Of a DNA stretch of 44,105 bases, positions 2,764-16,351 are shown piece after piece. A program made the translations under genes and the position numbers. The notes below the pieces were generated by a model. That model was not told the DNA's origin. It was given only the letters and a program-made list of their open reading frames with translations, and did not search any database. Origin of the DNA: a virus. The stretch is taken from IMG/VR virus record IMGVR_UViG_3300006165_001513, positions 1-44,105 of that record, one strand, 5' to 3'. Every line of letters starts with the position of its first letter. Position 1 is the stretch's first letter.

Positions 2764-3162
2764 TTATTCAGGATCAACTGCATCAGCAGGAAGATCAGGA
2801 GTTACATCGTCAACCGCCCAAGGCATTGTGGCTTCAACAACTTGTGTAGCATCAATTTCTTTTTGGATTTGAGCTTCGATATGTGATTTATAGCCTGGAT
2901 CAGCTTCTACTACAGCAGTAATCCAACCAATAACCACATCTTCAGTTAATGATGCAAAATCAGTAAAGTTTGCTAAGGAAACAGACGCAGCGGTAAACGG
3001 TGTTGCACCAGAGAATTCGCCGACCTTTGTATCGTCAACTGTATCAGTTCCGACTACTTTCCAATATGTTTGACAAACCGCGTTTGACAACGTGTCGCCA
3101 TCTGTGTTAACTTCGTCTTTGACTTTAATGCCAGTGACGCTATATGCTAATGTTAGTGCCAT
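2764..3162 (-). CDS. Small phage protein, paralogue of the downstream 109-residue protein
   Basis: This 132-residue acidic protein has the layout AYSVTGIKVKDEVNTDG, SNAVCQTYWKV, GATPF, then an amphipathic VIGWITAVVEADPGY stretch. Each block has its counterpart in the 109-residue neighbour. The C-terminus adds a Pro/Asp/Ala-rich extension (PDLPADAVDPE) that the neighbour lacks. The ATG at 3162 has CGGAG about 9 bases upstream, and a late-type TATAAATA lies at 3218-3225. It holds a single cysteine and no signal peptide. Function is unknown. The late promoter and the surroundings suggest a minor virion component or assembly factor. Confidence 0.6.
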   Translation of the reverse strand: MALTLAYSVTGIKVKDEVNTDGDTLSNAVCQTYWKVVGTDTVDDTKVGEFSGATPFTAASVSLANFTDFASLTEDVVIGWITAVVEADPGYKSHIEAQIQKEIDATQVVEATMPWAVDDVTPDLPADAVDPE

Positions 3163-3217: not shown

Positions 3218-3225
3218 TATTTATA
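3218..3225 (-). promoter_or_regulatory. T4-type late promoter TATAAATA
   Basis: Exact TATAAATA on the minus strand, 55 bases upstream of the 132-residue gene start (3162) and just before the end of the oxygenase-like gene at 3230. Confidence 0.7.
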
Positions 3226-3229
3226 CTCT

Positions 3230-3790
3230 TTAGCCACTGTGTAGATAAAGGTCTACCGGTATAGCTATTCGTAAGCTAGAATAGTAAGGATTTACGTGGT
3301 GATATGTAAAACTTGGGAAAATTAAATAATCACCGGTTTGAGGAGTATGTTTAAATCTTTCAAACATTGGTTCGAATTCACTATCGTATCCTCTGTTAGC
3401 GTTTGATCTAGGATCAGAAAATACGATGTCACCACCTGAATTTTGATCTTCGGCCATAACATAAAATACTGCAGATAAATGAGCCCCAGAATGATTGTGA
3501 ATAGTCATACTGTAATCTTTGCCATGGCCAGTAATCCAGCCTTTCATTTCATGGTTATTCCAATCACTTATTTCTTTATTAATAGTTTCTTTTAAATAAG
3601 AATTAAAATGGTCGTAAACCAATTCTTTAAATGCATGCATTACATCAGAATCGTCGTCAAATATATTGCAGCCGTCTACTTCCGCATCTAAATCGTGCAA
3701 GTCGTAATTTGTAAATATATGTTCAACCAGTCCGTCAACTTCAAATTTGCCACTACCAAACATTGTTGGCCACTGTGGTGTCATTTTCAT
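3230..3790 (-). CDS. 2OG-Fe(II) oxygenase-like protein (TIGR02466 / 2OG-FeII_Oxy_5 type)
   Basis: The protein (186 residues from the chosen start) has the double-stranded beta-helix signature of this putative oxygenase family. HNHSGAHLSAVFYV lies near residue 98, then GGDIVFSDPR, then TGDYLIFPSFTYHHVNP and LRIAIP. The histidine in FTYHHV and the arginine in LRIAIP fit the distal iron and 2-oxoglutarate ligands. The proximal motif reads HNH rather than the textbook HxD, as in two proteins of the plus-strand operon. The second in-frame ATG (3790) is preferred because GAGGAG lies 6 bases before it, whereas it directly abuts the ATG at 3796. It is divergently transcribed from the modification operon but its family ties link it to that operon. 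Its substrate is unknown. Confidence 0.75.
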   Translation of the reverse strand: MKMTPQWPTMFGSGKFEVDGLVEHIFTNYDLHDLDAEVDGCNIFDDDSDVMHAFKELVYDHFNSYLKETINKEISDWNNHEMKGWITGHGKDYSMTIHNHSGAHLSAVFYVMAEDQNSGGDIVFSDPRSNANRGYDSEFEPMFERFKHTPQTGDYLIFPSFTYHHVNPYYSSLRIAIPVDLYLHSG

Positions 3791-3816
3791 ATTCATCTCC
3801 TCATACTATATAAGGT

Positions 3817-3824
3817 TATTTATA
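3817..3824 (-). promoter_or_regulatory. T4-type late promoter TATAAATA (left arm of divergent pair)
   Basis: Minus-strand TATAAATA 26 bases upstream of the oxygenase-like start codon at 3790. It is back to back with a plus-strand copy at 3864-3871, with 39 bases between the two octamers. Confidence 0.75.
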
Positions 3825-3863
3825 TGTATCTTTTCTGTTGACATTTTGATCTACTTGTGTTAT

Positions 3864-3871
3864 TATAAATA
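3864..3871 (+). promoter_or_regulatory. T4-type late promoter TATAAATA driving the modification operon
   Basis: Plus-strand TATAAATA 26 bases upstream of the cupin gene start (3898). It is the only candidate promoter ahead of the first gene of the plus-strand operon. The cupin gene has TAAGGA about 6 bases before its ATG. Confidence 0.8.
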
Positions 3872-3897: not shown

Positions 3898-4365
3898 ATG
3901 AATTTTCAACAGTTTGAAAAATTTCTGTTATCAGAAGATTGCTATATGAACCATGATGTATCTATTATTGATACAGATGGTCTTCAGCACTATGTTAGTG
4001 AAACAGAATTCTTTACTTATCAAGCCAAAATGACTAAGCATTTGGTACAAGAAAAGTATACTGTTAAAATTGAACAGATGGAAAATCATTGGAAATTTAA
4101 TGATCGCACGATGCATTTGTTTTATAATCCAAAGAACGGCCCAACATTTAGTGAACATACAGATCCAATAGATGTTATTATCGAATGCAAAGATGGTATT
4201 AAACATGTAGAAGTAGAAGGCCGGAAAATTGATCTACTTCCAAATGAACGGCTGCATATTCCGGCAAACACATTTCACAAAGCATTAAACTATGAAAAGG
4301 CATTGGTGATATCACATGGCATTAGCGACACAGAAACACTTGAGTGTTTACGTAAAAACGACTGA
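3898..4365 (+). CDS. Cupin / JmjC-like oxygenase-type protein
   Basis: This 155-residue protein has a single cupin-type core in its C-terminal half. HTD at residues 87-89 is followed by a beta-rich stretch (DVIIECKDGIKHVEVEGR), then LPNERLHIPANTFHKALN with His127. HTD plus His127 would complete an Fe(II)-binding HxD...H triad like that of cupin-fold 2-oxoglutarate hydroxylases. The LHIPANTFHKALN phrasing resembles the second cupin motif of JmjC-like enzymes. No clear 2-oxoglutarate-binding residue can be picked out, so a non-oxygenase cupin is possible. It is the first gene after the late promoter. Its 3' end overlaps the first radical SAM gene by 50 bases, which suggests coupled translation and a shared task. 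Confidence 0.65.
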   Translation: MNFQQFEKFLLSEDCYMNHDVSIIDTDGLQHYVSETEFFTYQAKMTKHLVQEKYTVKIEQMENHWKFNDRTMHLFYNPKNGPTFSEHTDPIDVIIECKDGIKHVEVEGRKIDLLPNERLHIPANTFHKALNYEKALVISHGISDTETLECLRKND

Positions 4366-5323
4366 AACTTGTAATTTAGATTGCTCTCATTGTTTCACCT
4401 CAGGCTCTAAAGGCGCAAAAATCTATTTTGATCCAGTTCGAACTGCGAATTGGCTTAATCAACTAGATCGCGATACAATCTTTTATGAATTTCACGGTGG
4501 CGAGCCTATGCTTGCTTCTATCGAATCAATGATGAAGTTTGTTGAACTTACTAAAGGTAAAGGCGTAGAATATGGTACAACTACAAACCTTGTATATAAG
4601 TTAACAGATGAAAAGCTAAAGTTTTTTGATGAAGTTCTTAATAAAAGAATTGGTACATCATGGGATCCTACCATTAGATTTACTAACGAAAAGCAAAGAC
4701 AGCTATGGGAAGACAATGTTAAATTACTTGTTGCTCGTGGTTACACAATTAAAGTCTTTGTTAGTTTAAGTAAAGACGTAGTTAATATGGAACCAAGAGA
4801 CATTTGTTCTTACATGGAAGATCTTGGTATTCAAGAAATTGATTTCGAGCGTATTACTATGGACGGTAATGCCAAAGGTAAAATGTGGCCATCTAACATT
4901 GAGTTAGACGAATGGTTTGTGAAATACCACTCTCAGATTGAATCTAGAGACGGAATTTTTCATGTAATTATGGAAAATGTATATGCTAAGTATGAACACA
5001 ATAATACATCCCGAGGTACGTGGTGCAGAGACTGTGAACAAAAACTATTAACTATTAACGCTAATGGATCTATAGCAGGTTGTCCCAACACAGCACCGAG
5101 TAAGGCGTATGGTCATATCGATACACCAGCAAGCGAAGTCATGAAATCGGACGGACGTTGTAGTATTATCATAAAAGAACTAAACAGAAATCCAGCGTGT
5201 TATGAATGTCCAGTATTTGATGTGTGTGGTTCAGACTGCCATCAATTAGAATGGGAAGGTGACATATGCCCGTCTCCCAAGACACTAATGATGCAATTAA
5301 AAAATGAATATAAATATAAATAA
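4316..5323 (+). CDS. Radical SAM enzyme with complete SPASM domain (rSAM1)
   Basis: This 335-residue protein has the radical SAM cluster motif CNLDCSHC (Cys19, Cys23, Cys26) and the SAM-amine-binding motif HGGEP at residues 60-64. The C-terminus matches the SPASM pattern exactly: Cys240-x10-Gly-x4-Cys256, then Cys295-x2-Cys298-x5-Cys304-x3-Cys308, then Cys318, with an additional Cys237. SPASM enzymes hold two auxiliary 4Fe-4S clusters and mostly modify peptides or proteins (AlbA, PqqE, anaerobic sulfatase maturases). The ATG at 4316 lies inside the cupin gene. A TTG at 4340 would give an N-terminus as short as those of rSAM3 and rSAM4, but it lacks a visible ribosome site. The next gene downstream is the CHxS-tailed protein, its best candidate substrate. 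Confidence 0.9.
   Translation: MALATQKHLSVYVKTTETCNLDCSHCFTSGSKGAKIYFDPVRTANWLNQLDRDTIFYEFHGGEPMLASIESMMKFVELTKGKGVEYGTTTNLVYKLTDEKLKFFDEVLNKRIGTSWDPTIRFTNEKQRQLWEDNVKLLVARGYTIKVFVSLSKDVVNMEPRDICSYMEDLGIQEIDFERITMDGNAKGKMWPSNIELDEWFVKYHSQIESRDGIFHVIMENVYAKYEHNNTSRGTWCRDCEQKLLTINANGSIAGCPNTAPSKAYGHIDTPASEVMKSDGRCSIIIKELNRNPACYECPVFDVCGSDCHQLEWEGDICPSPKTLMMQLKNEYKYK
5309..5322 (+). promoter_or_regulatory. Overlapping tandem pair of TATAAATA late promoters ahead of the CHxS protein
   Basis: Two copies of TATAAATA (5309-5316 and 5315-5322) share two bases and cover the last codons of rSAM1. The CHxS gene starts at 5352, with CGGAG about 10 bases upstream of its ATG. The placement would give the CHxS gene its own late transcript. 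The overlapped codons encode YKYK, so coding-driven coincidence is possible, but an exact doubled octamer at this spot is striking. Confidence 0.65.
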
Positions 5324-5351
5324 TGGAAAGAACACTCGGAGTTAGTATAAC

Positions 5352-5936
5352 ATGGTATCATTAACAAATAACGTTAGTCGATCAAACGTCCGTCTTAGAT
5401 GGCAAGACTACGTAGCTGCAGCTGCACGATCTGGTATTGCGTGGGGGTATAACCGAAAGCCTTTTTCGCAAGCTCCTAACAGTTGGTTTGGTGGCAATTA
5501 CAACTCACCTCCGGGCGCAAGTTCTTACGCCAGCGATAACACAATAGGTAGTTCTGGTGGTTTGATTACTGCTTCTACACTTCGCAATGGTTTGGTTGGT
5601 GCTACTACTAACTGGACTCACTTGCGAAATATGAATGCGCGCAGATATTTTAACAGACAAGGATCGAATCAACTTCAATATAACTCAACACAAAAGGCTT
5701 ATCAAACTACAAGTGTTAGAGCAACCATTGCTACTCCAAGTATTCCAAGTAGTGGACCTACAGCGGGTGGTATTATTAGAATTGGTTCAGACGGAAGTAA
5801 CACGGGTCTTGAAGAATACTTTGCCAGATTACGAAGTGCGTATTATACTCGCCGCAACCAAGCAGTAGCTCGGTATGCTTATGTTTGCCATTACAGCTGC
5901 CATTACAGTTGCCATAGCTCAAGAGGACGTAGATAA
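5352..5936 (+). CDS. CHxS-repeat-tailed protein, candidate substrate of the radical SAM system
   Basis: This 194-residue protein has a basic start (SNVRLRWQDYVAAAARSG) and a long middle rich in Gly, Ser, Asn and Tyr. An Arg/Tyr-rich segment near residue 160 leads to the tail CHYSCHYSCHSSRGRR (residues 179-194). The only cysteines are Cys179, Cys183 and Cys187, at exact four-residue spacing and each followed by His. The H-x-S phase (HYS, HYS, HSS) recalls the repeats of HxsA, the presumed substrate of the His-Xaa-Ser radical SAM systems. Here a cysteine precedes each His. I see no signal peptide or membrane segment. It sits directly after a SPASM radical SAM gene, has its own putative late promoter pair, and overlaps the next gene by one base (TAATG). 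It could be a RiPP-like precursor, a modified virion protein, or a metal-binding structural protein. Confidence 0.7.
   Translation: MVSLTNNVSRSNVRLRWQDYVAAAARSGIAWGYNRKPFSQAPNSWFGGNYNSPPGASSYASDNTIGSSGGLITASTLRNGLVGATTNWTHLRNMNARRYFNRQGSNQLQYNSTQKAYQTTSVRATIATPSIPSSGPTAGGIIRIGSDGSNTGLEEYFARLRSAYYTRRNQAVARYAYVCHYSCHYSCHSSRGRR
5886..5921 (+). repeat. Three 12-base tandem units encoding CHYS-CHYS-CHSS
   Basis: Units begin at 5886, 5898 and 5910. The first two differ only in the last base (TGCCATTACAGC and TGCCATTACAGT). The third keeps TGCCAT and then reads AGCTCA. They encode the cysteine/histidine/serine tail of the 194-residue protein. Confidence 0.85.
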
Positions 5937-6685
5937 TGATAAAAAATACCGTGGCTCCTATTCCTATTGAGTTACTCAAGGAATATTTTAGTGATGATAC
6001 TATTGTTTTCAATATTGATTACGCCGAAAGTATTTTAAAAGGTGATAAGCTTATTACATATTTGAGTAACTTAGATGTTCCTTCTAAGTTGACTGGATGG
6101 GATAAAGTATCAACACAAGATAAATTTTCTTTTATTAAAGATTATATGAATGCAAAACTAGTTATTAAAAATTATGAATTAGAAGTATGTGTTTTAAAGA
6201 TTTTATATGAGTTGTCTTACTTAGAATTCTGGGCTGAATACGAAGAAACTGAAAACATTCTATCATATGACGAGACTTGCAGTTTTTGTGAAGCTAACCA
6301 AGATATGATTCAGCAGTGGTTAACTATGCTAGCAAGCTGTTCTGTATACGCATTAATAACAGTTGGCGAAGATAGCGATTTAACTGACTTGGTACTAGAA
6401 GAATTTGAAACAATAGACGATTATGACTACTGTGGTGTAAACTTTGTGATGTTGTTTAGACATGAATTAACACAAGAATTATTAGGTGCCGATCGCCCCG
6501 TATACTATTTCGATAAACAGTTTAACGAGCCAATGTTTAAAGGGCAAGACCTGTATACATATTGGGACCATAATAACAACACAATGGCAATCATTACGCA
6601 GGGTATTTCATCTGGAGATATTCTACACGCCGAATTCGCCGCTAATATAGAAAAAGGATTGGACGATGTTTCTGCTATTCGATAG
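5936..6685 (+). CDS. Unrecognised acidic protein following the CHxS gene
   Basis: This 249-residue, strongly acidic protein does not match a family I recognise. It opens with NTVAPIPIELLKEYFSDD. Its middle is helical and aromatic (LKILYELSYLEFWAEYEETE), followed by SFCEANQD, and it has a long Asp/Glu-rich stretch (TVGEDSDLTDLVLEEFETIDD). No signal peptide or metal-binding motif is visible. Its start overlaps the stop of the CHxS gene (TAATG), so translation is probably coupled. The acidic protein next to a basic, Cys/His-tailed one suggests a partner, chaperone or recognition protein for the presumed substrate, but this rests on position alone. It is longer than the small HxsD-type proteins of Hxs systems, and I see no basis for equating them. 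Confidence 0.7.
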   Translation: MIKNTVAPIPIELLKEYFSDDTIVFNIDYAESILKGDKLITYLSNLDVPSKLTGWDKVSTQDKFSFIKDYMNAKLVIKNYELEVCVLKILYELSYLEFWAEYEETENILSYDETCSFCEANQDMIQQWLTMLASCSVYALITVGEDSDLTDLVLEEFETIDDYDYCGVNFVMLFRHELTQELLGADRPVYYFDKQFNEPMFKGQDLYTYWDHNNNTMAIITQGISSGDILHAEFAANIEKGLDDVSAIR

Positions 6686-7823
6686 AGTTTATGTAAAGTA
6701 CGACTTTATGCTAGACAATAATACTGATAACCTAATTTGCTCTCCAAATATTCCAACACTCATTTGGGATGAATTAGAAGCTATCCATACGAATATGGGC
6801 GAATTCATGCATAGGGTAGATACGTATGAAGATCTTGTTGGTACTGCTGAAGTTGGTGCATTAGATGATAACGACGAACAAATTGTTATTCCTTATCTTA
6901 ATGACCTAGAATTCTTTGATGCGTTGCTAACACAGGGCAGAATAAATATTCACGTTGATACAGTTGCATATGATAAGATCTTTTCTAAGTTTTTAAAAAT
7001 CTTTTTTCCAAGTATGTCGAGAGATGTTGCATGGAAAACATATAACATTTTCAGAACAAACAGCCAATTACTAAACACCACCAGTTTTATTTGGGGTGGA
7101 GCTGGCGAACAACAGCAGATCGATAACGCTGCGCAGTGGGTACCTAGAACAAAAACAGAATTTCTTGCGGTTTATGATACAATATCACGAGATCTAGAAG
7201 ACGATGCCTATACTACCTTTGTTGCTTCTGCAAAGCAGAAAATTGGCATTGAGTTTATGATTGCTAATAGACTAGCTGGTGATGAATCTTATGATGTTTT
7301 CCTTGGCGAAAAGATGTATAAGCTTATGGCAGCGAGAGTTAACGAAGAAGGTACGTTCTTAAAATCTACTTTGTTTAACAACATGTTCAGGCCTTGGGTA
7401 CAAACAGTACTAGGTGTTACTATAAACGCAAACGATGATTTATTAGATCTTCAAGATACTAATGATATGACTCGTTGGTTGTTTGACGATACTGAGCGGT
7501 ATTTCACTGTAGATTACCAAACAAACCATCCAAATATTAGGTTTAGTGCCATCCGTACTGCAATGATAACCGCGGTTACAGGATCTTCTTTAGAAGTAGA
7601 AGAAGCACTAACAAACGCATCAATGGATTTTGTTCACGATAATGTTTTAGTGCAAAACTTTACAACTGCTAATATCACAACTATATTGAGTGCTGATAAA
7701 ACTTACTTAGGACCATCTGTGTTTGAATGCGAAAGTAGACTTAAAGTTAATGCTCTATTCATAGGCTATATCTATAAATTAGCTATTGGCGAAGATGCTG
7801 AGCTGGGTATGTTTAGCCTATGA
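6666..7823 (+). CDS. Unrecognised 385-residue protein of the modification operon
   Basis: No family is recognisable. The protein starts MFLLFDRVYVKYDFMLDN, with AGGA 7 bases before the ATG. It is mostly helical in pattern, acidic, low in cysteine and without a signal peptide or membrane segment. The segment near residue 145 (SFIWGGAGEQQQIDN) and the C-terminal part are the only distinctive stretches. The gene overlaps the preceding acidic-protein gene by 20 bases and the following oxygenase-like gene by 4 (ATGA), so it belongs firmly to the operon. It could be an accessory or scaffold protein for the modification enzymes, or the product of a second target gene. Nothing in the sequence decides between these. 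Confidence 0.7.
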   Translation: MFLLFDRVYVKYDFMLDNNTDNLICSPNIPTLIWDELEAIHTNMGEFMHRVDTYEDLVGTAEVGALDDNDEQIVIPYLNDLEFFDALLTQGRINIHVDTVAYDKIFSKFLKIFFPSMSRDVAWKTYNIFRTNSQLLNTTSFIWGGAGEQQQIDNAAQWVPRTKTEFLAVYDTISRDLEDDAYTTFVASAKQKIGIEFMIANRLAGDESYDVFLGEKMYKLMAARVNEEGTFLKSTLFNNMFRPWVQTVLGVTINANDDLLDLQDTNDMTRWLFDDTERYFTVDYQTNHPNIRFSAIRTAMITAVTGSSLEVEEALTNASMDFVHDNVLVQNFTTANITTILSADKTYLGPSVFECESRLKVNALFIGYIYKLAIGEDAELGMFSL

Positions 7824-8362
7824 TACAAAACTGCTATGAATCTTCGATATGGGTTAAACAATTTGACAATAGCAACGAGTTCAATCAAGATGTTTTAAAT
7901 ACCACAAAAGCAATATCAGCTACAACTCCCAAGCCTGTAGCTGATCATAACGTTGATCTGTGGGTGTCTGATAATATGCAAACTGTTAGATCATATTTTA
8001 TGGAAGGCTTTAAAGACTTATGTACTACATATAATGAAAAAGCAGACTTTGATATAGATTCTATGAATATGGTTAATCCTATGAAACACGGCGACTTTAA
8101 GTCATGCCACAACCACGATGTTATCGACGCATTCGGTGTTTATTATGTTAATGAATCGGATGAAGGCGGTAAGCTAAGATTATATGACCCAAGATTCCTC
8201 AGCAAGAAGTCATTTTCACAAGGCCCTTATCTTGAGATAAAGCCACGAACTGGTCTTATGGTAGTTGCACCATACTATTTTTGGCATGAGGTTACTCCAT
8301 ATCTAGGTAATGAAACTCGATACAGTTTAATATGTAATATGGTATTTAATAATGTCACTTGA
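7820..8362 (+). CDS. 2OG-Fe(II) oxygenase-like protein (TIGR02466 type)
   Basis: This 180-residue protein is of the same type as the one at 3230-3790. HNHD occurs at residues 97-100, then FGVYYVNE, GGKLRLYDPR, and TGLMVVAPYYFWHEVTP with His156, then Arg167 in the segment ETRYSLICN. The His156/Arg167 spacing fits the distal iron ligand and the 2-oxoglutarate-binding arginine. The proximal site reads HNH where classical members have HxD, though an Asp follows directly (HNHD). The family is thought to hydroxylate unknown substrates. The start codon overlaps the upstream stop (ATGA), and the 3' end overlaps rSAM2 by 11 bases. Pairing with a radical SAM gene recurs through the operon. Confidence 0.75.
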   Translation: MIQNCYESSIWVKQFDNSNEFNQDVLNTTKAISATTPKPVADHNVDLWVSDNMQTVRSYFMEGFKDLCTTYNEKADFDIDSMNMVNPMKHGDFKSCHNHDVIDAFGVYYVNESDEGGKLRLYDPRFLSKKSFSQGPYLEIKPRTGLMVVAPYYFWHEVTPYLGNETRYSLICNMVFNNVT

Positions 8363-9344
8363 TATAATAACAAGGACAGGTAAACGAGCAAACACTGGCG
8401 AGATCATTGTTACATTGTTCGAATTCTGTAACCTAAGCTGTAAGTTTTGCAACCAAGATCATGATAGTCTAGAAGGTGTTAAGACTATAGCTGAAAAGGT
8501 TGATGTTGTAAAAAAGGTTATAATGCAAACGCCTCGGGAAAAATACAGTGTTCACTTTATGGGTGGCGAAGTATTTGCTGATGCGTTGCCTTTACACGTC
8601 TATACCGATTATCAATATGTATGTCAAGAATTAAACGCGTGGGCAATCGAACAGGATATTGAACTGCAGCTATGCTTTACTAGTAATATGGTATTTGATA
8701 ACACAGACGCTTTAGATGAGTTTCTTTATATTTCTAATCCTACATTAATAACTAGCTTCGATCCTGCTGCACGTTTTAATAATGATACGTTTGAGACTTT
8801 TAAGCGCAATGTAAAGAAGTACAAAGATCATATTAAGTCTGTTAATATCATCATGACTAAGCCGACGATAAATAAGTTTATGAAAGGTGACGTTGAATTT
8901 TTTGATTATCTATATGAGCATTTTGATGTTTACTTTGATTACTATACGCCAGAAAAGAACATGGCAATGTTTATTCCTAACGATGTAATGCTACGTGATT
9001 TTATGCTTTATATGCTTGAGCATTATCCTAAAGCATTACCCTTTGCAGATTATACGAGCAAGATTAAGAAACAAATGAGCTGTATGGATACAGTGACTAT
9101 TATGCCAGATAATTCGTTTGGCAATTGCACTATCCTACTAAAAGATTTTAAAAATGTAACGACAACTAAGCAAGACATGGAACAAGAATGGTTTAAGCAA
9201 TATAGTTGTTTAACCTGTCCACACTTTCAATACTGTTCTATGGGTTGCTTTTTGTCTAATCACATGCAGAGTTTTAGAACTCAAGAAGCGTGTTGGTTAA
9301 GTGAGGTTTATGATGTGGTCCACCCCGATTCAAGTATTCAATGA
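8352..9344 (+). CDS. Radical SAM enzyme with SPASM-type C-terminus (rSAM2)
   Basis: This 330-residue protein has CNLSCKFC (Cys26, Cys30, Cys33) and the MGGE motif. Its C-terminal cysteines are ordered as in SPASM domains: a Cys followed by DNSFGNC, where Asn stands in place of the usual Gly. Then comes CLTCPHFQYCSMGC with exact CX2CX5CX3C spacing, and a last cysteine in EACW. It can therefore bind two auxiliary clusters. An N-terminal extension of about 16 residues precedes the barrel, unlike rSAM3 and rSAM4. The Cys-to-Gly/Asn variation and weak similarity outside the motifs show it is not a recent copy of rSAM1, so it may carry out a different step. It sits between two TIGR02466-type oxygenase-like genes. 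Confidence 0.9.
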   Translation: MSLDIITRTGKRANTGEIIVTLFEFCNLSCKFCNQDHDSLEGVKTIAEKVDVVKKVIMQTPREKYSVHFMGGEVFADALPLHVYTDYQYVCQELNAWAIEQDIELQLCFTSNMVFDNTDALDEFLYISNPTLITSFDPAARFNNDTFETFKRNVKKYKDHIKSVNIIMTKPTINKFMKGDVEFFDYLYEHFDVYFDYYTPEKNMAMFIPNDVMLRDFMLYMLEHYPKALPFADYTSKIKKQMSCMDTVTIMPDNSFGNCTILLKDFKNVTTTKQDMEQEWFKQYSCLTCPHFQYCSMGCFLSNHMQSFRTQEACWLSEVYDVVHPDSSIQ

Positions 9345-9810
9345 TGGTTATAAAAAGCCAGTAGAAAGATATAGAGATTTTCTAAAAGAACACTTTGATC
9401 TTAATTTAGAAAATTTTAATTATGAAATAAGAGAGTGGGAAACAACCCCAGGCTCTGGCTATTGGTTAGCACCGCATAATCATGGGCATTCGCATTTTAC
9501 AGCAATTCATTACAGTTATGTTTCCGGAGAAGGCGGTGAATTAATCCTGCATGACCCAAGAGTGAACGCTAATAGAGGATTCCCACAAGAATTTGGATCT
9601 GAGTTTGCGCCATACATAATTAAACCAGAAACCGGAATGACTGTTATATTTCCATCTTATATCTACCATACAGCTGCGCCTTTTAGAGGCATGATAAGAG
9701 AAGGAAAGGTAAGTGAAATTCAATTAAATAGCCCACGTACTATTGACAATTTAATAGAAGAAGGATATATTAATATGGATAACGCGCATTTAGGAGCTAC
9801 TCCAATATGA
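9313..9810 (+). CDS. 2OG-Fe(II) oxygenase-like protein (TIGR02466 type)
   Basis: From the chosen start this protein has 165 residues. HNHGHSHFTAIHYSYV begins near residue 55, then GGELILHDPR, and TGMTVIFPSYIYHTAAP with the distal histidine. Three starts are in frame (GTG 9301, ATG 9310, ATG 9313). ATG 9313 is chosen because AGG lies 6 bases before it, but ATG 9310 is nearly as good. It overlaps the end of rSAM2 by about 32 bases. The core is shorter than that of the other two TIGR02466-type proteins, and the arginine after the distal histidine is not cleanly placed. It carries HNH instead of HxD. It may be an active oxygenase with an unusual site or a degenerate partner subunit. Confidence 0.7.
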   Translation: MWSTPIQVFNDGYKKPVERYRDFLKEHFDLNLENFNYEIREWETTPGSGYWLAPHNHGHSHFTAIHYSYVSGEGGELILHDPRVNANRGFPQEFGSEFAPYIIKPETGMTVIFPSYIYHTAAPFRGMIREGKVSEIQLNSPRTIDNLIEEGYINMDNAHLGATPI

Positions 9811-10445
9811 ATATTAATAAATTCTATACAGACGGATATGATGAATGGCAAATGCCTCCACACCTGTCAGCTATGATTTGGGGACAACTTTTGTGCGAGA
9901 ATTGGATTGATCATCCTGTATATAAAGAAATTCCAGACTGGAGTATTAATAAAGGTGGTGAAGCTCAAAACCAAGATCAAAAATATCTTAGAGGTAAAGA
10001 GCAAGAGATTAACGAACAAAGCCTATCTGTCGTTCCACCCACGTACCAAACAGTAATAGAAGAATTGCTCAAAGAAGATTACTATTCAGAATGGTTTGAG
10101 ACTGTATGTGGTTATCAACAAAAGATTAAATTCATTGATGTTTGGAATGGATCTGATGATCTTAAATGGCACTGGGATGGAGTAGAAGATCACGATATGG
10201 GGTTTCTGATATACTTTACAGAGCAACAACAATGGAACGAAGAATGGAAATCATATCTTCAAATTGGAGAAAGAGAATGGCCAAACAACGATGAAATCAA
10301 TATTAAACATACTGCGTATCCTAGTAACGGCAAGATTATCTTGTTAAACAATATGAATCCAAGATTCGTACATTCTGTAGCAAAACTGACAAACACTAAT
10401 GTTAATAGATATACTATTAACGCGGGGATTTCTTTATGGAACTAA
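9807..10445 (+). CDS. 2OG-Fe(II) oxygenase with intact HxD...H...R triad
   Basis: This 212-residue protein has the complete facial triad. HWD (His122, Asp124) is the proximal pair, His189 in FVHSV is the distal ligand, and Arg201 in NRYTI is the 2-oxoglutarate anchor. The spacing is that of prolyl-4-hydroxylase-like dioxygenases. These enzymes use O2 and 2-oxoglutarate to hydroxylate a substrate. In context the substrate is more likely a peptide or protein than a small molecule. Its N-terminal helix (HLSAMIWGQLLCENW) and its C-terminal half match the protein at 11983-12702, so the two are paralogues. The start overlaps the upstream stop (ATGA) and the end overlaps rSAM3 by 10 bases. Confidence 0.85.
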   Translation: MNINKFYTDGYDEWQMPPHLSAMIWGQLLCENWIDHPVYKEIPDWSINKGGEAQNQDQKYLRGKEQEINEQSLSVVPPTYQTVIEELLKEDYYSEWFETVCGYQQKIKFIDVWNGSDDLKWHWDGVEDHDMGFLIYFTEQQQWNEEWKSYLQIGEREWPNNDEINIKHTAYPSNGKIILLNNMNPRFVHSVAKLTNTNVNRYTINAGISLWN

Positions 10446-11437
10446 TTATTAAACCAACCGAGAAATGTAATTTTAAATGTACATTCTGTTCAAGTACATC
10501 AATTGCAGATGATGCTACGGATGAACTAGGCTTAGAACATATTTACACGTTTCTTAGGAGATTTCCTGATACGAACACTATCGTAGTAAATGGTGGTGAT
10601 CCTTTAATGATGAAGCCGTCTTATTACACAAAGCTGCTTGATCATCTTGACGAACACGACTATCCTACTACGGTAGCCTTTACAACAAACCTATGGCCGT
10701 TTTATATGAAGCCAGATAAGTGGATTGATATCTTCTTACATCCTCGTATAGGTATTACAACAAGTTTTCATTATGGCGAATCAAGACTAAAGGGTGATTA
10801 TTCGGTATTTACTGAAGAAGACTTCTGGGCAGCATCAGACAAAATGCTAGAACTCGTTGGGTATCGGCCAGGATTCATATCTGTTATAGACGAACACAAC
10901 GCAGACAGAGCACTTGATAATGTGCGCCTTGCAAAAAAGATGGGCGTTGAATGTAAACTAAATTACACGATGGCGTCTGGTATTGCTGGCCGTCCTTATC
11001 AATTATCAAAGATGTATAGTATCTATTTAGATGTATATGAAGCTGGTTTAACTGAGTGGGAATTCAATACTAAACAAATGGTTGTGAGGCTTCGTAATGA
11101 ATCTTTGATGTGTCCTCAGAATAGAGCTTGTGATAGTACTATTAGAGCATTGCAACCAAGCGGAGACTATTATAGCTGTGGAGCGATGGGTGACGATAGA
11201 GAATACGCTATTGATTTTGAAAGAGAGATGGCTGGCGAATTCTTTACTCCTCTACAAGAAGATCCTGATATCCAAACAATGCGAACTGACGGTGAATGTT
11301 ATTCATGTCCAATGTTCCAAATTTGTAACGGATGCAAGAAAACGGTAAAAGACACTAAACGACATAATATGGTTGAGACCCACTGTACATTAATGAAACA
11401 ATTAGCACCGAGGATTATAGATGCAAATAACGGATAA
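10436..11437 (+). CDS. Radical SAM enzyme with SPASM domain (rSAM3)
   Basis: This 333-residue protein carries CNFKCTFC (Cys11, Cys15, Cys18) almost at its N-terminus and NGGDP as the SAM-binding motif, with Asp in place of Glu. Its SPASM half starts with a Cys, ten residues, Gly, four residues and Cys (GDYYSC), then CYSCPMFQICNGC and a last HC. The second block reads CX2CX5CX2C, one residue shorter than the canonical CX2CX5CX3C. It therefore probably still binds two auxiliary clusters. It most likely modifies a peptide or protein. It is flanked by two genuine 2OG-Fe(II) oxygenase genes, which it overlaps by 10 and 17 bases. Confidence 0.9.
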   Translation: MELIIKPTEKCNFKCTFCSSTSIADDATDELGLEHIYTFLRRFPDTNTIVVNGGDPLMMKPSYYTKLLDHLDEHDYPTTVAFTTNLWPFYMKPDKWIDIFLHPRIGITTSFHYGESRLKGDYSVFTEEDFWAASDKMLELVGYRPGFISVIDEHNADRALDNVRLAKKMGVECKLNYTMASGIAGRPYQLSKMYSIYLDVYEAGLTEWEFNTKQMVVRLRNESLMCPQNRACDSTIRALQPSGDYYSCGAMGDDREYAIDFEREMAGEFFTPLQEDPDIQTMRTDGECYSCPMFQICNGCKKTVKDTKRHNMVETHCTLMKQLAPRIIDANNG

Positions 11438-11993
11438 CGCACTGCCGCTTGTTGAATATAAAACAATACTAAATTACTTTACTTCAGAGGCACCAAATTG
11501 GAAATTTGTTACTAATGTAACTCACGGTTCTGTAGGTGAACATGGACGTGATAAATGGGGATTTGCGTGTAGTATATATGATTGTGGTGATGCGGTAGGT
11601 CGTAACCCAACAGAAGAGATAATTGATAGACTTGCGATGAAAGTTATTGAACCAATAATCATGGATAAAACTAAATTACTCAGAGTTCGTGCCGGAATGA
11701 TATTAAACGTAGGTCCTGATGCACCACACAATCCTCATATTGATCAACCTGGAATAGAGCATTTGACTCAGATATACTATCTAACTGCAAGTGATGCACC
11801 AACTAACGTATTTGAAGAGTATGGTCTTGATGAAAAATACAACACATACGCACCAGAAGATTTTACTATTAAAGCGCAATCTAAACCTGAGCCTAACAGA
11901 ATGCTTGTATTTGACGGGTTTCATTGGCATAGTTCATCGCACGTATATGGTCCAGAAGTAAGAATAACTCTGAATATTAATTATGCTAAGTAA
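11421..11993 (+). CDS. 2OG-Fe(II) oxygenase with HxD motif
   Basis: This 190-residue protein has a proximal HID (His106, Asp108) in NPHIDQP and the segment FDGFHWHSSSH with three candidate distal histidines (168, 170, 174). VRITLNI follows with the likely 2-oxoglutarate-binding arginine. The PHxD...VFDG...H...R layout is that of small phage and bacterial 2OG dioxygenases whose substrates are mostly unknown. It differs from the HWD/HFD pair on either side of it, so the operon holds at least three oxygenase subtypes besides the cupin. It overlaps the rSAM3 gene by 17 bases and the next oxygenase gene by 11. Confidence 0.8.
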   Translation: MQITDNALPLVEYKTILNYFTSEAPNWKFVTNVTHGSVGEHGRDKWGFACSIYDCGDAVGRNPTEEIIDRLAMKVIEPIIMDKTKLLRVRAGMILNVGPDAPHNPHIDQPGIEHLTQIYYLTASDAPTNVFEEYGLDEKYNTYAPEDFTIKAQSKPEPNRMLVFDGFHWHSSSHVYGPEVRITLNINYAK

Positions 11994-12702
11994 TAGTCCA
12001 AACTTTAACAACTTATATCTTAAAGGCGCAGACATAGTTGACGTTGATCCATCATTCTCTGCAATGCTGTTTGCTCAATTGCTTTCAGAGAAATTTTGTA
12101 CAGAAAGTAGTTACGGTACTGCTATAACTAATCCTATATGGGATAGAGAATATAATGAAAGAGAAGAGCCTGTTTATATTGCAGGTAAGAAACCTTATGT
12201 GGAATTCTTTAAAGAAGTTATTAAATCTCCCTACTTTGATTATTGGAGGCATGTTTATGGAGAGTTTGACGAGATTCATGTTAATGTTAACAAAGTAACG
12301 GCCGGTGGTGAGATGCCTTGGCACTTCGATGGATACGACGGAACATTTCTGCAACTGCTTTGTTATCCTAATATGGATGATTTTAATCCTGATGATGGTG
12401 GACATCTTTTAGTAGGCAGACCTGATACGTTATATCGCGAAGGTGATCCGATGCCGCACTGGGTACCAGAAAAAAGCTTAGATGATATTCTAACAAGCAA
12501 CGTAGAAGTAACACAAAGATTTGTTCCTAACAGAAACCAAATTGTTGTTCTTAATAATAACGATCCGTCGTTTGTACATAGAGTAACAAAGCTTAGCGCT
12601 GATAAAACAAGATATACTATAATTGCAACACTAGGATTTAGTTCTTTGTGGAAGACAAACAAATTGAAGTCTGGGTTCTATAAGGATATAAAGTTACTAT
12701 GA
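11983..12702 (+). CDS. 2OG-Fe(II) oxygenase with intact triad, paralogue of the 9807-10445 gene
   Basis: This 239-residue protein has a complete triad: HFD (His114, Asp116), His199 in FVHRV, and Arg210 in TRYTI. The N-terminal DPSFSAMLFAQLLSEKF and the C-terminal VVLNNNDPSFVHRVTKL correspond segment by segment to the 212-residue oxygenase at 9807. This points to a duplication within the operon, separated now by rSAM3 and another oxygenase. An insertion of about 25 residues near residue 150 (PDTLYREGDPMPHW) and a basic C-terminal extension are specific to this copy. The substrate is unknown. It overlaps the start of rSAM4 (ATGA). Confidence 0.85.
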   Translation: MLSNSPNFNNLYLKGADIVDVDPSFSAMLFAQLLSEKFCTESSYGTAITNPIWDREYNEREEPVYIAGKKPYVEFFKEVIKSPYFDYWRHVYGEFDEIHVNVNKVTAGGEMPWHFDGYDGTFLQLLCYPNMDDFNPDDGGHLLVGRPDTLYREGDPMPHWVPEKSLDDILTSNVEVTQRFVPNRNQIVVLNNNDPSFVHRVTKLSADKTRYTIIATLGFSSLWKTNKLKSGFYKDIKLL

Positions 12703-13622
12703 TTATATCATTAAACCCAACTTACTTGTGTAACTTTAGATGTGATTTCTGTTACCTAACGCCAGATCAATTAGCAGATAAGAATAAAATCGATTTAAAT
12801 GTTCTTGACCAGCGATTGTCTGAAGTATCAAAACATGCTCCTATTGAGCACGTTGATTTATATGGTGGTGAGATTAGTGTACTGGGCGACTCGTACTTCT
12901 ATGATATGAAAGAAAAGATTCGTAAATATTATCAAGGCGATATTAATATCATAACGAACTATGCATCTCCTAAGCCATATATGCATGATAAGGATATATC
13001 TCTTTCAGTATCATACGACTTTGATGCTCGTGAAAAATCTGATTTAGTATTTACTAATATGATTATGTGTCCTGTTCCAATCTCAATTCTAATACTTGCT
13101 AGTAGAAAAGTTATTGATATGGACGTTAAGTCTATGGTCCAACAATTAAGTATGTTATCTAATATTCGTTCTGTAGAGATTAAACCATATTCAACGAACC
13201 AAGCTAACCAACAAGATGTTACTCATAAGGACTTCGAGGACTTTGTTATTAAATGGCTTGAGATGGACCTACCGTTTGAGTTTGAAAACAGACATCGTAT
13301 AGAAGATTCAATTGCAAAATACTACGACGCATTCAGCAACAATCACGTTTACATTAATCCTAACGGTAAGTTTTCCGTTCTAGAATTTGATGAAGACGAC
13401 AATGAATACTTTCTAGAATTGAATTCGTTTGATGAGTATAGAGAGTGGGCTAAAAACGAAGCAAAAGATAATACAAGTGACATATGTAGAAATTGTGAAT
13501 ACTACGGTCATTGTTTAACTGAACATTATAGATATGTTACAGATTTAACTAACAGTTGTAATGGATATAAGGGGTTATTAGAATGGGCAGAATCTTTAAG
13601 CGTCGCAAACCAACAGTACTAA
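12699..13622 (+). CDS. Radical SAM enzyme with reduced SPASM-like C-terminus (rSAM4)
   Basis: This 307-residue protein has CNFRCDFC (Cys11, Cys15, Cys18) and YGGE. Unlike the other three it lacks the first SPASM cysteine pair. The segment after YINPNGKF has an acidic run and no Cys. The second block reads CRNCEYYGHC, then His at the position of the fourth Cys, then NSC. It may hold one auxiliary cluster, or a cluster with a histidine ligand, rather than two. It could be a catalyst of another step or an enzyme specialised for a different substrate. It is the fourth radical SAM gene and the last before the halogenase gene, which it overlaps by 40 bases. Confidence 0.85.
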   Translation: MIISLNPTYLCNFRCDFCYLTPDQLADKNKIDLNVLDQRLSEVSKHAPIEHVDLYGGEISVLGDSYFYDMKEKIRKYYQGDINIITNYASPKPYMHDKDISLSVSYDFDAREKSDLVFTNMIMCPVPISILILASRKVIDMDVKSMVQQLSMLSNIRSVEIKPYSTNQANQQDVTHKDFEDFVIKWLEMDLPFEFENRHRIEDSIAKYYDAFSNNHVYINPNGKFSVLEFDEDDNEYFLELNSFDEYREWAKNEAKDNTSDICRNCEYYGHCLTEHYRYVTDLTNSCNGYKGLLEWAESLSVANQQY

Positions 13623-14866
13623 TTTGTGGTGGTGGAACAGCCGGATGGTTAGCAGCAGTAATGCTACATGAAAAGTTTGATGTAACACTTATTGAAAGTG
13701 AATCTATCCCTCCAATCGGTGTGGGTGAAAGTACAACTGAAACAGTAACAGACGTAATGCGAAGCGCCGGAATTGATATGAAAGACTTTGTATCAAAAAC
13801 AAACGCAACAGGCAAATACGGTGTACAGTTTACTGGATGGCCAGATTACTTCCATCCTTTTGGAGAGACTTGGTTACAAGAACATATTGATGAAGATAAA
13901 CTTAGCTCGATGTATAGTGCTGGTCATAACATAAGTAAGCTATCTCCTTACACGCACATGGCGCAAGATGGAATAGAACCTCCAATGGATTTCAAAGACG
14001 AGTTTTATCATGATGTTGCTTTGCATTGGCAAAACGATCTTGTTGCTCCTTATTTAAAAGAGTTTCTAGGCGACAAGATTAATCATCACTATCATGATAT
14101 AGATGTAGTAGCGACAGATAAGAACGGTGTTAAGTCCGTTGATTCTTTCACTGCTGATTATTATGTTGATTGCACTGGGTCTGCGAGACTCCTCAGTAAA
14201 CCGTTCGGAATTGAATATATTCCGTTTGATGATCTGCATTTAGACTCAGCAATAGTATATTCAATACCTATGAATAGCAATCTATACACTGAAGCAATTA
14301 AACGAAAGTTTGGTTGGGAGTGGTCAATCCCACTGCAAGATAGAAACAATAGAGGGTACGTGTACTGCTCTGACTGGGCCACTGAACAAGAGATAATAGA
14401 CGAGATTGGTGTTAAAGAAGGTTATAGAGTTGTAAAATTCTGTGCAGGCGCGTTAACTAACATTGCCCACAAGAATGTTATATCTAACGGTCTTGCCGCG
14501 CACTTCATAGAACCACTCGAAGCCACTAATATTGAGTTTGGTGTATTTACTATCAGGTGGTTTATGGAATCTGTAGAAGCTGGTTATGATTATAAATCTC
14601 TTAACGATAAACTTTTGGCGTCTGTAACAGAGATTAGAGATTTTATTGTTTTTCATTACCATAACGATGATAGGTTTAGAACAATAGAGAATATCCAAGA
14701 TCGCCCACCAATAGAACCTTGGCATCCTTTTAATTGGTACTGTGTTGCACAAGGTGTAAGTTTAAAAAATGAGATAAATAACGATATAGATGCTTTACTA
14801 GATTATGTGATTATTGAGGGGAAGGTGCATGAAAGAATGGCAAGCAAGACAAGAGATCTACCGTAG
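13583..14866 (+). CDS. Flavin-dependent (tryptophan-type) halogenase
   Basis: This 427-residue protein has the family's landmarks. The FAD-binding start is LICGGGTAGWLAAVMLHE and IPPIGVGEST follows near residue 42. Lys78 in ATGKYGVQF aligns with the catalytic lysine (Lys79 of PrnA). WEWSIP (residues 245-250) is the WxWxIP halogenase signature. FIEPLEATNIEFG puts Glu313 at the position of the catalytic glutamate, with Ala314 where PrnA has Ser. The fold oxidises halide with FADH2 and O2 and passes the halogen to an aromatic substrate. Phage halogenases have precedent in VirX1 of a marine cyanophage. No flavin reductase is visible here, so reduced flavin would come from the host. The target could be an aromatic or histidine residue of the CHxS protein or another phage protein. 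Confidence 0.9.
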   Translation: MGRIFKRRKPTVLICGGGTAGWLAAVMLHEKFDVTLIESESIPPIGVGESTTETVTDVMRSAGIDMKDFVSKTNATGKYGVQFTGWPDYFHPFGETWLQEHIDEDKLSSMYSAGHNISKLSPYTHMAQDGIEPPMDFKDEFYHDVALHWQNDLVAPYLKEFLGDKINHHYHDIDVVATDKNGVKSVDSFTADYYVDCTGSARLLSKPFGIEYIPFDDLHLDSAIVYSIPMNSNLYTEAIKRKFGWEWSIPLQDRNNRGYVYCSDWATEQEIIDEIGVKEGYRVVKFCAGALTNIAHKNVISNGLAAHFIEPLEATNIEFGVFTIRWFMESVEAGYDYKSLNDKLLASVTEIRDFIVFHYHNDDRFRTIENIQDRPPIEPWHPFNWYCVAQGVSLKNEINNDIDALLDYVIIEGKVHERMASKTRDLP

Positions 14867-15221
14867 GTTAAACAAACCAACAACAGACGATCTCAGCAAA
14901 TTTGATATTGTATGGCGACCTGATACAATTGTTGAAGATGCTGTAAGACACTTTAAAGAACACGTAGGTGAATGGATATATCCAGGCAAGTCGTACTTTG
15001 TTGCGATCTGTTATGCTACGTGGATCGCTAATGAATTTAATGAAAATCTTATAGAAGTATTAGACGATATTGATTTACTTCCAGGTGACCCGCACTTCCT
15101 ACCGTATTGCCAAGCTAGTGAAACTTATGACCAAATTCTCAAGAATTTAAAATGGCATGATACTGACGGCATGGTTCCAGATGTTCGTAAATACTATGAT
15201 GAAGAGATGCATTATGATTGA
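14829..15221 (+). CDS. Unrecognised small protein after the halogenase
   Basis: From the ATG at 14829 this protein has 130 residues and starts MKEWQARQEIYRRLNKP. The upstream TTG at 14814 is less likely, because GAGGGGAAGG lies only 5 bases before the ATG. The middle segment (GKSYFVAICYATWIANEFNEN) and DLLPGDPHFLPY look like a compact helical fold. I recognise no family and see no signal peptide or metal motif. Its sole link is position: it overlaps the halogenase gene by 38 bases and the next gene by 8. It might assist the halogenase or be an unrelated phage gene caught in the operon. Confidence 0.7.
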   Translation: MKEWQARQEIYRRLNKPTTDDLSKFDIVWRPDTIVEDAVRHFKEHVGEWIYPGKSYFVAICYATWIANEFNENLIEVLDDIDLLPGDPHFLPYCQASETYDQILKNLKWHDTDGMVPDVRKYYDEEMHYD

Positions 15222-15774
15222 TAAGATTATGCCTACTTTGATTGAGAATAAGTGGTCTACTGACGGTGAGCAGAGATTTTATAGACCTGAATCGTTTCAC
15301 AATCTACCTACATTCGTTTCAAAAGTTGGAATAGAGTTAATTGGCGTGAGTGAAAAAAGTATCAATGTTACATATGATAATCATCCTACTAAAAAGATAT
15401 TAAAGGTTTTTAACGTAACAAAGAAGCATGCGTATTGTGATTATTATGCTATAGAGATTTTTGATGATCATCAGGTGTTAAAGATATACGATCAAGATCT
15501 TTCGAAGTATCCATTGCCATCATTACCGCCCGGATCAAGATTAGATCCTCTTAAATCAGGAATAGGTATTCAATATCCCGATAGCGATGTAGCAAAGATT
15601 TATTTTTTGCATGATGATGTAAGCGTTGTGCATGAATGGTTTAAAGATATGAATCCAGTGAAAGCTGACGCTGTTTCAAGACTTACTTATTTTGGTTTAG
15701 AATATAATTTAAAAACTTTATTATTGACAAACCTTTCACAATATGACATATACGAGGAAGAAGATCTTGGGTAA
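15214..15774 (+). CDS. Unrecognised 186-residue protein
   Basis: I chose ATG 15214 (MIDKIMPTLIENKWSTDGEQRFY). It has GAAGAGA a few bases before it and overlaps the previous stop by 8 bases. A start at 15157 would add a 19-residue stretch that reads as part of the previous gene in another frame. The protein contains a beta-rich stretch around residues 60-80 (SINVTYDNHPTKKILKVFNV) and LPSLPPGSRLDPL, which may be a loop. No recognisable family, signal peptide or metal site is visible. It belongs to the operon's 3' part, between the small protein and the P-loop NTPase. Confidence 0.7.
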   Translation: MIDKIMPTLIENKWSTDGEQRFYRPESFHNLPTFVSKVGIELIGVSEKSINVTYDNHPTKKILKVFNVTKKHAYCDYYAIEIFDDHQVLKIYDQDLSKYPLPSLPPGSRLDPLKSGIGIQYPDSDVAKIYFLHDDVSVVHEWFKDMNPVKADAVSRLTYFGLEYNLKTLLLTNLSQYDIYEEEDLG

Positions 15775-16351
15775 AGCAAATAAAAGAATAGCGGTAGTAG
15801 GTGCACACGGTGTAGGTAAGAATACTATCGCAATCAAATTGCTTGAGCGTGAGAAGTTTAGTCAACGTGGCGTTAATGTAACTTATATGCCTGAGACCGT
15901 ACGATCAACTATGTTTATGGACCACAACATTCTGGGTAAAGAGATCGGTGGTAATTATTATTCAGTCAGTTGGTTATTCCATAGACATTGGAGCCAAATG
16001 CTTGAACACGAATACAGTTGCGATGTGTTTATCTCTAAACGTCTTCCACTAGATTACGTAGTATTTAATGAAGTTGCGTATCAGTTAGGGATGGTTGATA
16101 GATTGCTCGAGCCTACATATACGCTATTAGCAGTAGATCAAGCAAAAGAGTTTGATGAAGTTTGGTTTGTAAGGCATAATTCTGAACACGAAATGGTTGA
16201 AGATAGTGTAAGGCAAGGAGATGCTGGTAGCGCTGACCTCCAACCATTATGGGATAAGCGCTACAAAGACATCATTGATAATTGGAATATTCCTGTAATT
16301 GAAGGAACGTGTGGAGAGTTGCTAGCTCTCCACTTTGATGTTAAACCTTAA
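15743..16351 (+). CDS. P-loop NTPase / kinase-like protein with altered Walker A
   Basis: This 202-residue protein begins with a beta strand and the phosphate-binding loop GAHGVGKNT (residues 20-28). YMPETVR and DVFISKRLPLDYVVFNEVAYQ follow, and the C-terminus has DEVWFVRHN. The order recalls AAA-type or nucleoside-kinase-like NTPases of phages (NadR/thymidylate-kinase type). The residue after the P-loop lysine is Asn, with Thr next (GKNT), whereas the family norm is Ser/Thr directly after Lys. Two starts compete: ATG 15743, which overlaps the upstream gene by 32 bases, and TTG 15767, with a strong GAGGAAGAAG site and an 8-base overlap. The gene ends 11 bases inside the convergent tail-fibre gene. 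Its role in the operon is unknown. Confidence 0.75.
   Translation: MTYTRKKILGKANKRIAVVGAHGVGKNTIAIKLLEREKFSQRGVNVTYMPETVRSTMFMDHNILGKEIGGNYYSVSWLFHRHWSQMLEHEYSCDVFISKRLPLDYVVFNEVAYQLGMVDRLLEPTYTLLAVDQAKEFDEVWFVRHNSEHEMVEDSVRQGDAGSADLQPLWDKRYKDIIDNWNIPVIEGTCGELLALHFDVKP

Follow-up and report, generated by a model that had tools for sequence, protein, structure and literature searches.

A probable T4-type late promoter inside the end of a radical SAM gene accompanies the CHxS gene of a phage protein-modification operon

Introduction

Why should two overlapping late-promoter octamers be found in the last codons of one gene, just ahead of the next, within an operon that already has a promoter at its head? 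The locus that raises this question lies in a 44,105-nucleotide fragment of viral DNA (IMG/VR record IMGVR_UViG_3300006165_001513, positions 1 to 44,105), the whole of which we call the window. Besides a cupin, its operon (3898-16351) encodes a tryptophan-halogenase-family enzyme, four radical SAM enzymes and several 2OG-Fe oxygenases, which together make up a protein-modification set that is unusual in a phage. This protein-modification operon is undescribed, and the radical-SAM, oxygenase and halogenase genes of these aquatic T4-like phages are otherwise unexplained. The gene behind the octamers, here called CHxS, stands directly after the first of the radical SAM genes, rSAM1.

The operon and its head promoter

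The features on which the argument draws are as follows, in order of position.

3838-3871, plus strand: composite head promoter, consisting of TTGACA (3838-3843), 17 nt, an extended -10 TATTAT (3861-3866) and an overlapping late octamer TATAAATA (3864-3871); motif scan and eight aligned relatives
3898-4365, plus strand: cupin/JmjC-like protein, first gene of the operon (PF08007 0.004, below cut-off; phrog_8014)
4316-5323, plus strand: rSAM1, a radical SAM/SPASM peptide-maturase-like enzyme (phrog_1802 8e-60), whose last codons and stop hold the putative internal promoter
5309-5316, plus strand: late-promoter octamer 1, an exact copy of TATAAATA, predicted start ~5322
5315-5322, plus strand: late-promoter octamer 2, TATAAATA, overlapping octamer 1 by two bases, predicted start ~5328
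5338-5341, plus strand: GGAG, the probable CHxS ribosome-binding site from sequence, 10 nt ahead of the ATG
5352-5936, plus strand: CHxS gene, 194 aa, candidate substrate, with a folded domain and a disordered C-terminal tail CHYSCHYSCHSSRGRR (alignments, AlphaFold model)
5936-6685, plus strand: phrog_20767 protein of unknown function, its ATG overlapping the CHxS stop
8352-9344, plus strand: second radical SAM enzyme, behind the putative CHxS promoter (PF04055 5e-8)
10436-11437, plus strand: third radical SAM/SPASM enzyme, downstream (PF04055 2e-9)
12699-13622, plus strand: fourth radical SAM enzyme, downstream (phrog_1802 1e-34)
13583-14866, plus strand: tryptophan-halogenase-family flavoenzyme, downstream (PF04820 2e-60)
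16311-16333, plus strand: hairpin of 10 bp with a weak T tail behind it, where the operon most plausibly ends and meets the convergent tail-fibre gene

What is new at the head of the operon is that its predicted promoter is a conserved sigma70/late composite. The sigma70 match there is 11/12 with an extended -10 TG, in the consensus form TTGACA-17-TAnTAT, and in eight aligned sequences TTGACATTT, the extended -10 TG (TG-TA-TAT) and TATAAATA are invariant in a region that otherwise drifts. The head of L018 has TTTACA-17-TATAAT and no late octamer, and the CHxS site of the same locus reads CATAAATA. A scan of the collection for TTGACA-N20-TATAAATA had no chance control and was not used as evidence.

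Several other features of the region are recorded here in their own right. The head octamer is one of two divergent late octamers 40 bp apart, 3817-3824 on the minus strand and 3864-3871 on the plus strand, which would drive a 2OG-oxygenase gene (3230-3796) and the operon respectively. Two adjacent small paralogous genes on the minus strand, 2422-2751 and 2764-3162, both match phrog_7802 weakly, and the second has its own late octamer at 3218. Within the operon, the PHROG label of 11421-11993, 'DNA endonuclease V' (phrog_274), looks wrong, the Pfam result being a weak 2OG-Fe(II) oxygenase match.

A tandem octamer at the end of rSAM1

The earlier note on this DNA had described two overlapping octamers ending rSAM1, 29-42 nt ahead of the CHxS start, and both the coordinates and the distances proved to be correct. 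Together the octamers encode the E-Y-K-Y-K-stop of rSAM1, with the CHxS start codon at 5352, and the 14-mer that they form, TATAAATATAAATA at 5309-5322, occurs once in the whole record. On alignment to the window, octamer 2 is unaltered in L008, L009 and L017. The predicted message starts at ~5322 and ~5328 derive from the T4 rule that the first base of the octamer is -13 (PMC2988020).

The raw number of TATAAATA copies in this AT-rich window is unremarkable, nine against 5.5 expected, with at least nine in 10 of 100 shuffles. Their placement is another matter: for eight of the nine, a gene on the same strand begins 18-70 nt downstream, which is true of 1.7% of strand positions (binomial P = 7.5e-14, the true P being somewhat weaker because the overlapping pair is not independent), and the distance at CHxS matches that of the other late promoters in the window. 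The best sigma70-like match at the CHxS site was only 9/12, with TTAAAA as its -35, and the total for the region was 55 versus 57 in shuffles; the scan found no conserved -35 element there, as is the case for T4 late promoters. Unlike the head promoter, the putative CHxS promoter is not a sigma70/late composite.

The T4 late system in related phages

In T4, a late promoter lacks a -35 element and consists of an 8-bp TATA box that lies roughly one helical turn ahead of the start; the box is perfect at 32 of 50 sites (PMC2988020). The late promoters of cyanophages use NATAAATA (PMC2984593). Host RNA polymerase reads T4-type late promoters late in infection, in dependence on the phage-encoded sigma factor gp55 and on the sliding clamp. 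The window, a 44-kb fragment, has no gp55 of its own, and the presence of the factor was judged on relatives. The 146-kb relative G002, whose rSAM1 is 74% identical to that of the window, clearly encodes the late sigma factor gp55 (6e-52), and gp55 was found in seven further relatives (G005, G006, G008, G009 and G014, and more weakly G007 and G010). Among the cultured phages discussed below, Atu_ph07 and Phosso gave weak gp55 matches only, and gp55 was not detectable in FLC6 and pPa_SNUABM_DT01. When G002 was pooled with its near relative G001, 12 of 21 octamers were 18-70 nt before a gene, against an expected fraction of 2.8% (P = 5e-14), and the genes behind the G002 octamers include those for the portal, prohead core, tail tube, tail fibre, Hsp20 and a RegA-type translation repressor.

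The octamer follows the CHxS gene

The CHxS set comprised 64 distinct genes from viral contigs, from which one representative per 70% identity cluster gave 34. The exact octamer was upstream of CHxS in seven of these 34, compared with 0.34 in dinucleotide shuffles (maximum 3 of 300), an enrichment at CHxS starts of about 20-fold; NATAAATA was upstream in 12 of 34, compared with 1.5. In the window's own CHxS clade (8 of the 64 genes, 98% support) all eight have the site, seven of them exact and one as CATAAATA, at 32-45 nt from CHxS. Across a conserved operon in seven relatives, NATAAATA was found at CHxS in 7/7 and at the other internal genes in 3/82, with the exact octamer at 0/82 (Fisher P = 2e-8, only indicative since the loci are related).

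The reading frame in which the octamer is embedded is not constant. It is TAT-AAA-TA in the window and L048, encoding YKYK-stop or DYK-stop, T-ATA-AAT-A in L052 and L060, where the peptide is KDIN, and TA-TAA-ATA in the separate lineages L081, L115 and L073, in which the stop codon is spanned (gTA-TAA-ATA). Across the family, every one of the three frames in which the rSAM end can be read is used, which points to selection on the DNA that preserves nucleotides and not amino acids. A synonymous-site test on the four nearest relatives was uninformative: none of them has a change in the motif, but changes at Tyr and Lys codons are rare throughout this gene (1/13 and 4/23).

Two natural controls were available. 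In L026 and L028-L036, the gene immediately after rSAM1 is a further radical SAM gene, and no octamer is present at the rSAM1 3' end. In two of these genomes, G013 and G019, GTATAAATAGC is in the last codons of a giant tail-fibre gene that precedes CHxS genes, 74 nt ahead of the first CHxS ATG in G013; the fibre gene of the window, 88-89% identical to these over its end, has GGCGTGAATAGC and no CHxS behind it. The CHxS genes of G013 (L269/L271) and G019 (L268/L272) are short and stand in tandem as a pair; they come immediately after the giant tail-fibre gene, at a distance from the rSAM operon. That placement suggests that CHxS might work with tail fibres.

The wider family sets bounds on this pattern. 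No octamer is upstream of 36 of the 64 CHxS genes, so that other lineages can do without the promoter, and NATAAATA variants, as promoters only putative, make up a quarter of the counted CHxS sites. Both points count against the late-promoter reading. In Atu_ph07, CATAAATA lies 48 nt ahead of CHxS and is not in its sister phage Phosso; this match is weak and was left out of the counts. Even so, since the site tracks CHxS in relatives, changes frame inside rSAM1 and is missing where another gene follows rSAM1, a late promoter tied to CHxS is the best explanation, and the tandem octamer at 5309-5322 is in all likelihood a genuine, conserved T4/gp55-type late promoter. The search rule used for cyanophage late promoters accepted sites between genes or reaching no more than 10 bp into the upstream gene (PMC3037559), and would tend to overlook promoters buried in coding ends, as at rSAM1.

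CHxS as a candidate protein substrate

rSAM1 combines a radical SAM core with a SPASM domain, as SPASM radical SAM maturases do (TIGR04085 SPASM 27.0 bits at a cut-off of 27; PF04055 22.9, under its cut-off of 29.5), and its matches to DarE, HxsB and sulfatase-maturase-like profiles were far under their cut-offs. The CHxS model (pLDDT 84, pTM 0.80) is a folded domain whose last ~15 residues are disordered, and the tail of the window protein includes CHYSCHYSCHSS. Family members are ~180-230 aa long and end in a nearly invariant C-H-x-S-C-x-x-x-C-H-x-x-R-x-R-R. CHxS falls into neither a Pfam nor an NCBIfam family and matches PHROG only weakly, and searches of solved structures returned no relative; against predicted viral structures its fold was significantly similar only to other phage proteins, including gp170 of Atu_ph07. 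A short leader-core RiPP precursor peptide was considered and set aside, CHxS being 194 aa with a folded domain. From its neighbourhood, its Cys/His tail and the SPASM-type maturase beside it, we infer a substrate role, and CHxS may possibly be a protein whose tail is modified.

When the window CHxS was used as query against cultured phages, neither nucleotide nor tblastn searches gave a match; its homologues there were reached via the rSAM1 match and then by reading the next gene. Atu_ph07, FLC6, Phosso and pPa_SNUABM_DT01 have the same order of a cupin-like or upstream gene, rSAM and CHxS. In these jumbo phages the homologues (L043:6056-6946 in Atu_ph07, L044:6069-6629 in FLC6, L045:6046-6582 in pPa_SNUABM_DT01 and L144:4001-4921 in Phosso) each immediately follow a radical SAM gene and carry no annotation beyond 'hypothetical protein'. 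In the paper on Atu_ph07, 'CDS 170-215' is given as a cluster of virion proteins (PMC6102473), of which CHxS, as gp170, is the first member, although all three clusters named there are exactly 46 genes wide and the edge is perhaps arbitrary; the gene numbering was verified by the capsid gene, gp215. As the four cultured phages share the core genes, the substrate, its modification and its virion location could be tested by existing mass-spectrometry methods. A 79% identical CHxS gene (L297) is on a contig binned as Bacteroidetes UBA4009, which may hint at the host or at viral contamination of the bin.

What the promoter would do

In the proposed mechanism, the whole operon would start from the composite at 3864-3871, by sigma70 early and gp55 late, and host RNA polymerase with gp55 would read the tandem octamer, so that messages beginning at ~5322/5328 in the rSAM1 end would carry CHxS first and then the rest of the operon. 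The net effect would be an extra, late-only dose of CHxS, and a lesser one of the genes behind it, relative to the cupin and rSAM1, at the time when virion proteins are made.

The earlier note had proposed a second late promoter within an otherwise continuous operon, and on sequence evidence this holds, as a conserved T4-type site belonging to CHxS. Its further proposal, that the promoter exists to make CHxS well beyond all its modifying enzymes, fared less well, and we regard it as possible but doubtful. In its favour are the promoter-proximal position of CHxS, its own GGAG and the recurrence of the promoter at CHxS and not at other operon genes. Against it, no convincing plus-strand terminator was found between CHxS and 16311 and no special hairpin just after CHxS (z = -0.35); with the CHxS stop overlapping the next ATG, a late start should therefore also raise 14 downstream genes. 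The start bypasses only the cupin and rSAM1, and three of the four radical-SAM genes, the 2OG-oxygenase genes and the halogenase gene would rise together with CHxS. Differential mRNA decay or translation could still produce an excess.

The absence of a terminator after CHxS, together with the continuous operon and its overlapping genes, also favours another account, in which the promoter mainly serves the modification genes of the whole downstream half-operon and CHxS merely happens to come first. We hold this to be just as tentative, since CHxS still has the octamer where it is relocated behind the tail fibre in G013 and G019, and an rSAM1 end followed by the same kind of downstream gene is without it.

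That the product would be placed late, the remaining proposal, is not distinctive of CHxS, as the head promoter has a late octamer too. A timing asymmetry remains plausible all the same, because the head is a conserved sigma70/late composite and the CHxS site is not: early and late enzymes versus an extra-late CHxS. The enzymes would probably start early and continue late, with CHxS gaining an added late-only start. It is conceivable, if speculative, that the phage times a protein-modification pathway by its promoter layout, with enzymes made early from the composite and a particle- or fibre-associated substrate with a CHxSCHxSCHxSRGRR tail added late, the tail being modified by radical SAM enzymes, oxygenases and the halogenase just before virion assembly.

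A codon accident, by which EYKYK and a stop in an AT-rich genome spell functionless octamers by chance, is improbable. The octamers are entirely coding, the raw window count is not significant, and several relatives have D/E-I-N at this position, which yields partial matches such as GATAAATG in L021 and AATAAATG in L027; the three reading frames, the enrichment at CHxS, the absence when another gene follows rSAM1 and the usual late-promoter distance all speak against it. Improbable too is a switch of the soc/e type, an arrangement known for some T4 late genes, in which a hairpin in the early read-through RNA would hide the CHxS ribosome-binding site and only the short late RNA would be translatable: accessibility in the window and L008 is lower in 200-nt read-through RNA (0.33-0.40 vs 0.46-0.60), but this difference is slight, is missing or runs the other way in L009, L016 and L018, gives a mixed picture in L019, and depends on which stretch is folded.

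The preferred reading thus remains a late promoter belonging to CHxS. The promoter itself is ordinary T4 biology; its conserved link to one gene points to CHxS as the late product of the operon and sets it apart from the enzymes.

Comparison with known systems

The site resembles the gp55/gp33/gp45 late promoters of T4 in having TATAAATA without a -35, a short distance to the ribosome-binding site, a gp55 homologue in relatives and sites ahead of structural genes. It differs in the two-base overlap of its octamers, in their location entirely within upstream coding sequence, and in a start that is only predicted.

As a phage radical SAM cluster, the operon is similar to the cassettes of pelagimyophages, of the Campylobacter phages CP220/CPt10 and of the jumbo phages FLC6, S13 and Atu_ph07, the available text of whose published accounts makes no mention of a CHxS gene or of a promoter ahead of it. 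In the HxsA/HxsB/HxsC system, too, radical SAM/SPASM enzymes stand next to a protein in which H-x-S units are repeated, and there are weak HxsB and HxsC matches here. Membership in that system was rejected (HxsB 41.8 bits vs a cut-off of 370; HxsC 29.8 vs 267.9); unlike its protein, CHxS has no NCBIfam match, CHxS units with an RGRR end, and a folded domain of ~180 aa.

The closest precedent for the head of the operon is found in the cyanophage S-PM2 and phage RB49, from which overlapping early and late promoters are known (PMC2984593), and in which, as here, a sigma70 promoter overlaps a late octamer. What sets the present arrangement apart is that a peptide-modification operon lies behind the composite, which has as its counterpart a putative late-only internal promoter at the candidate substrate gene.
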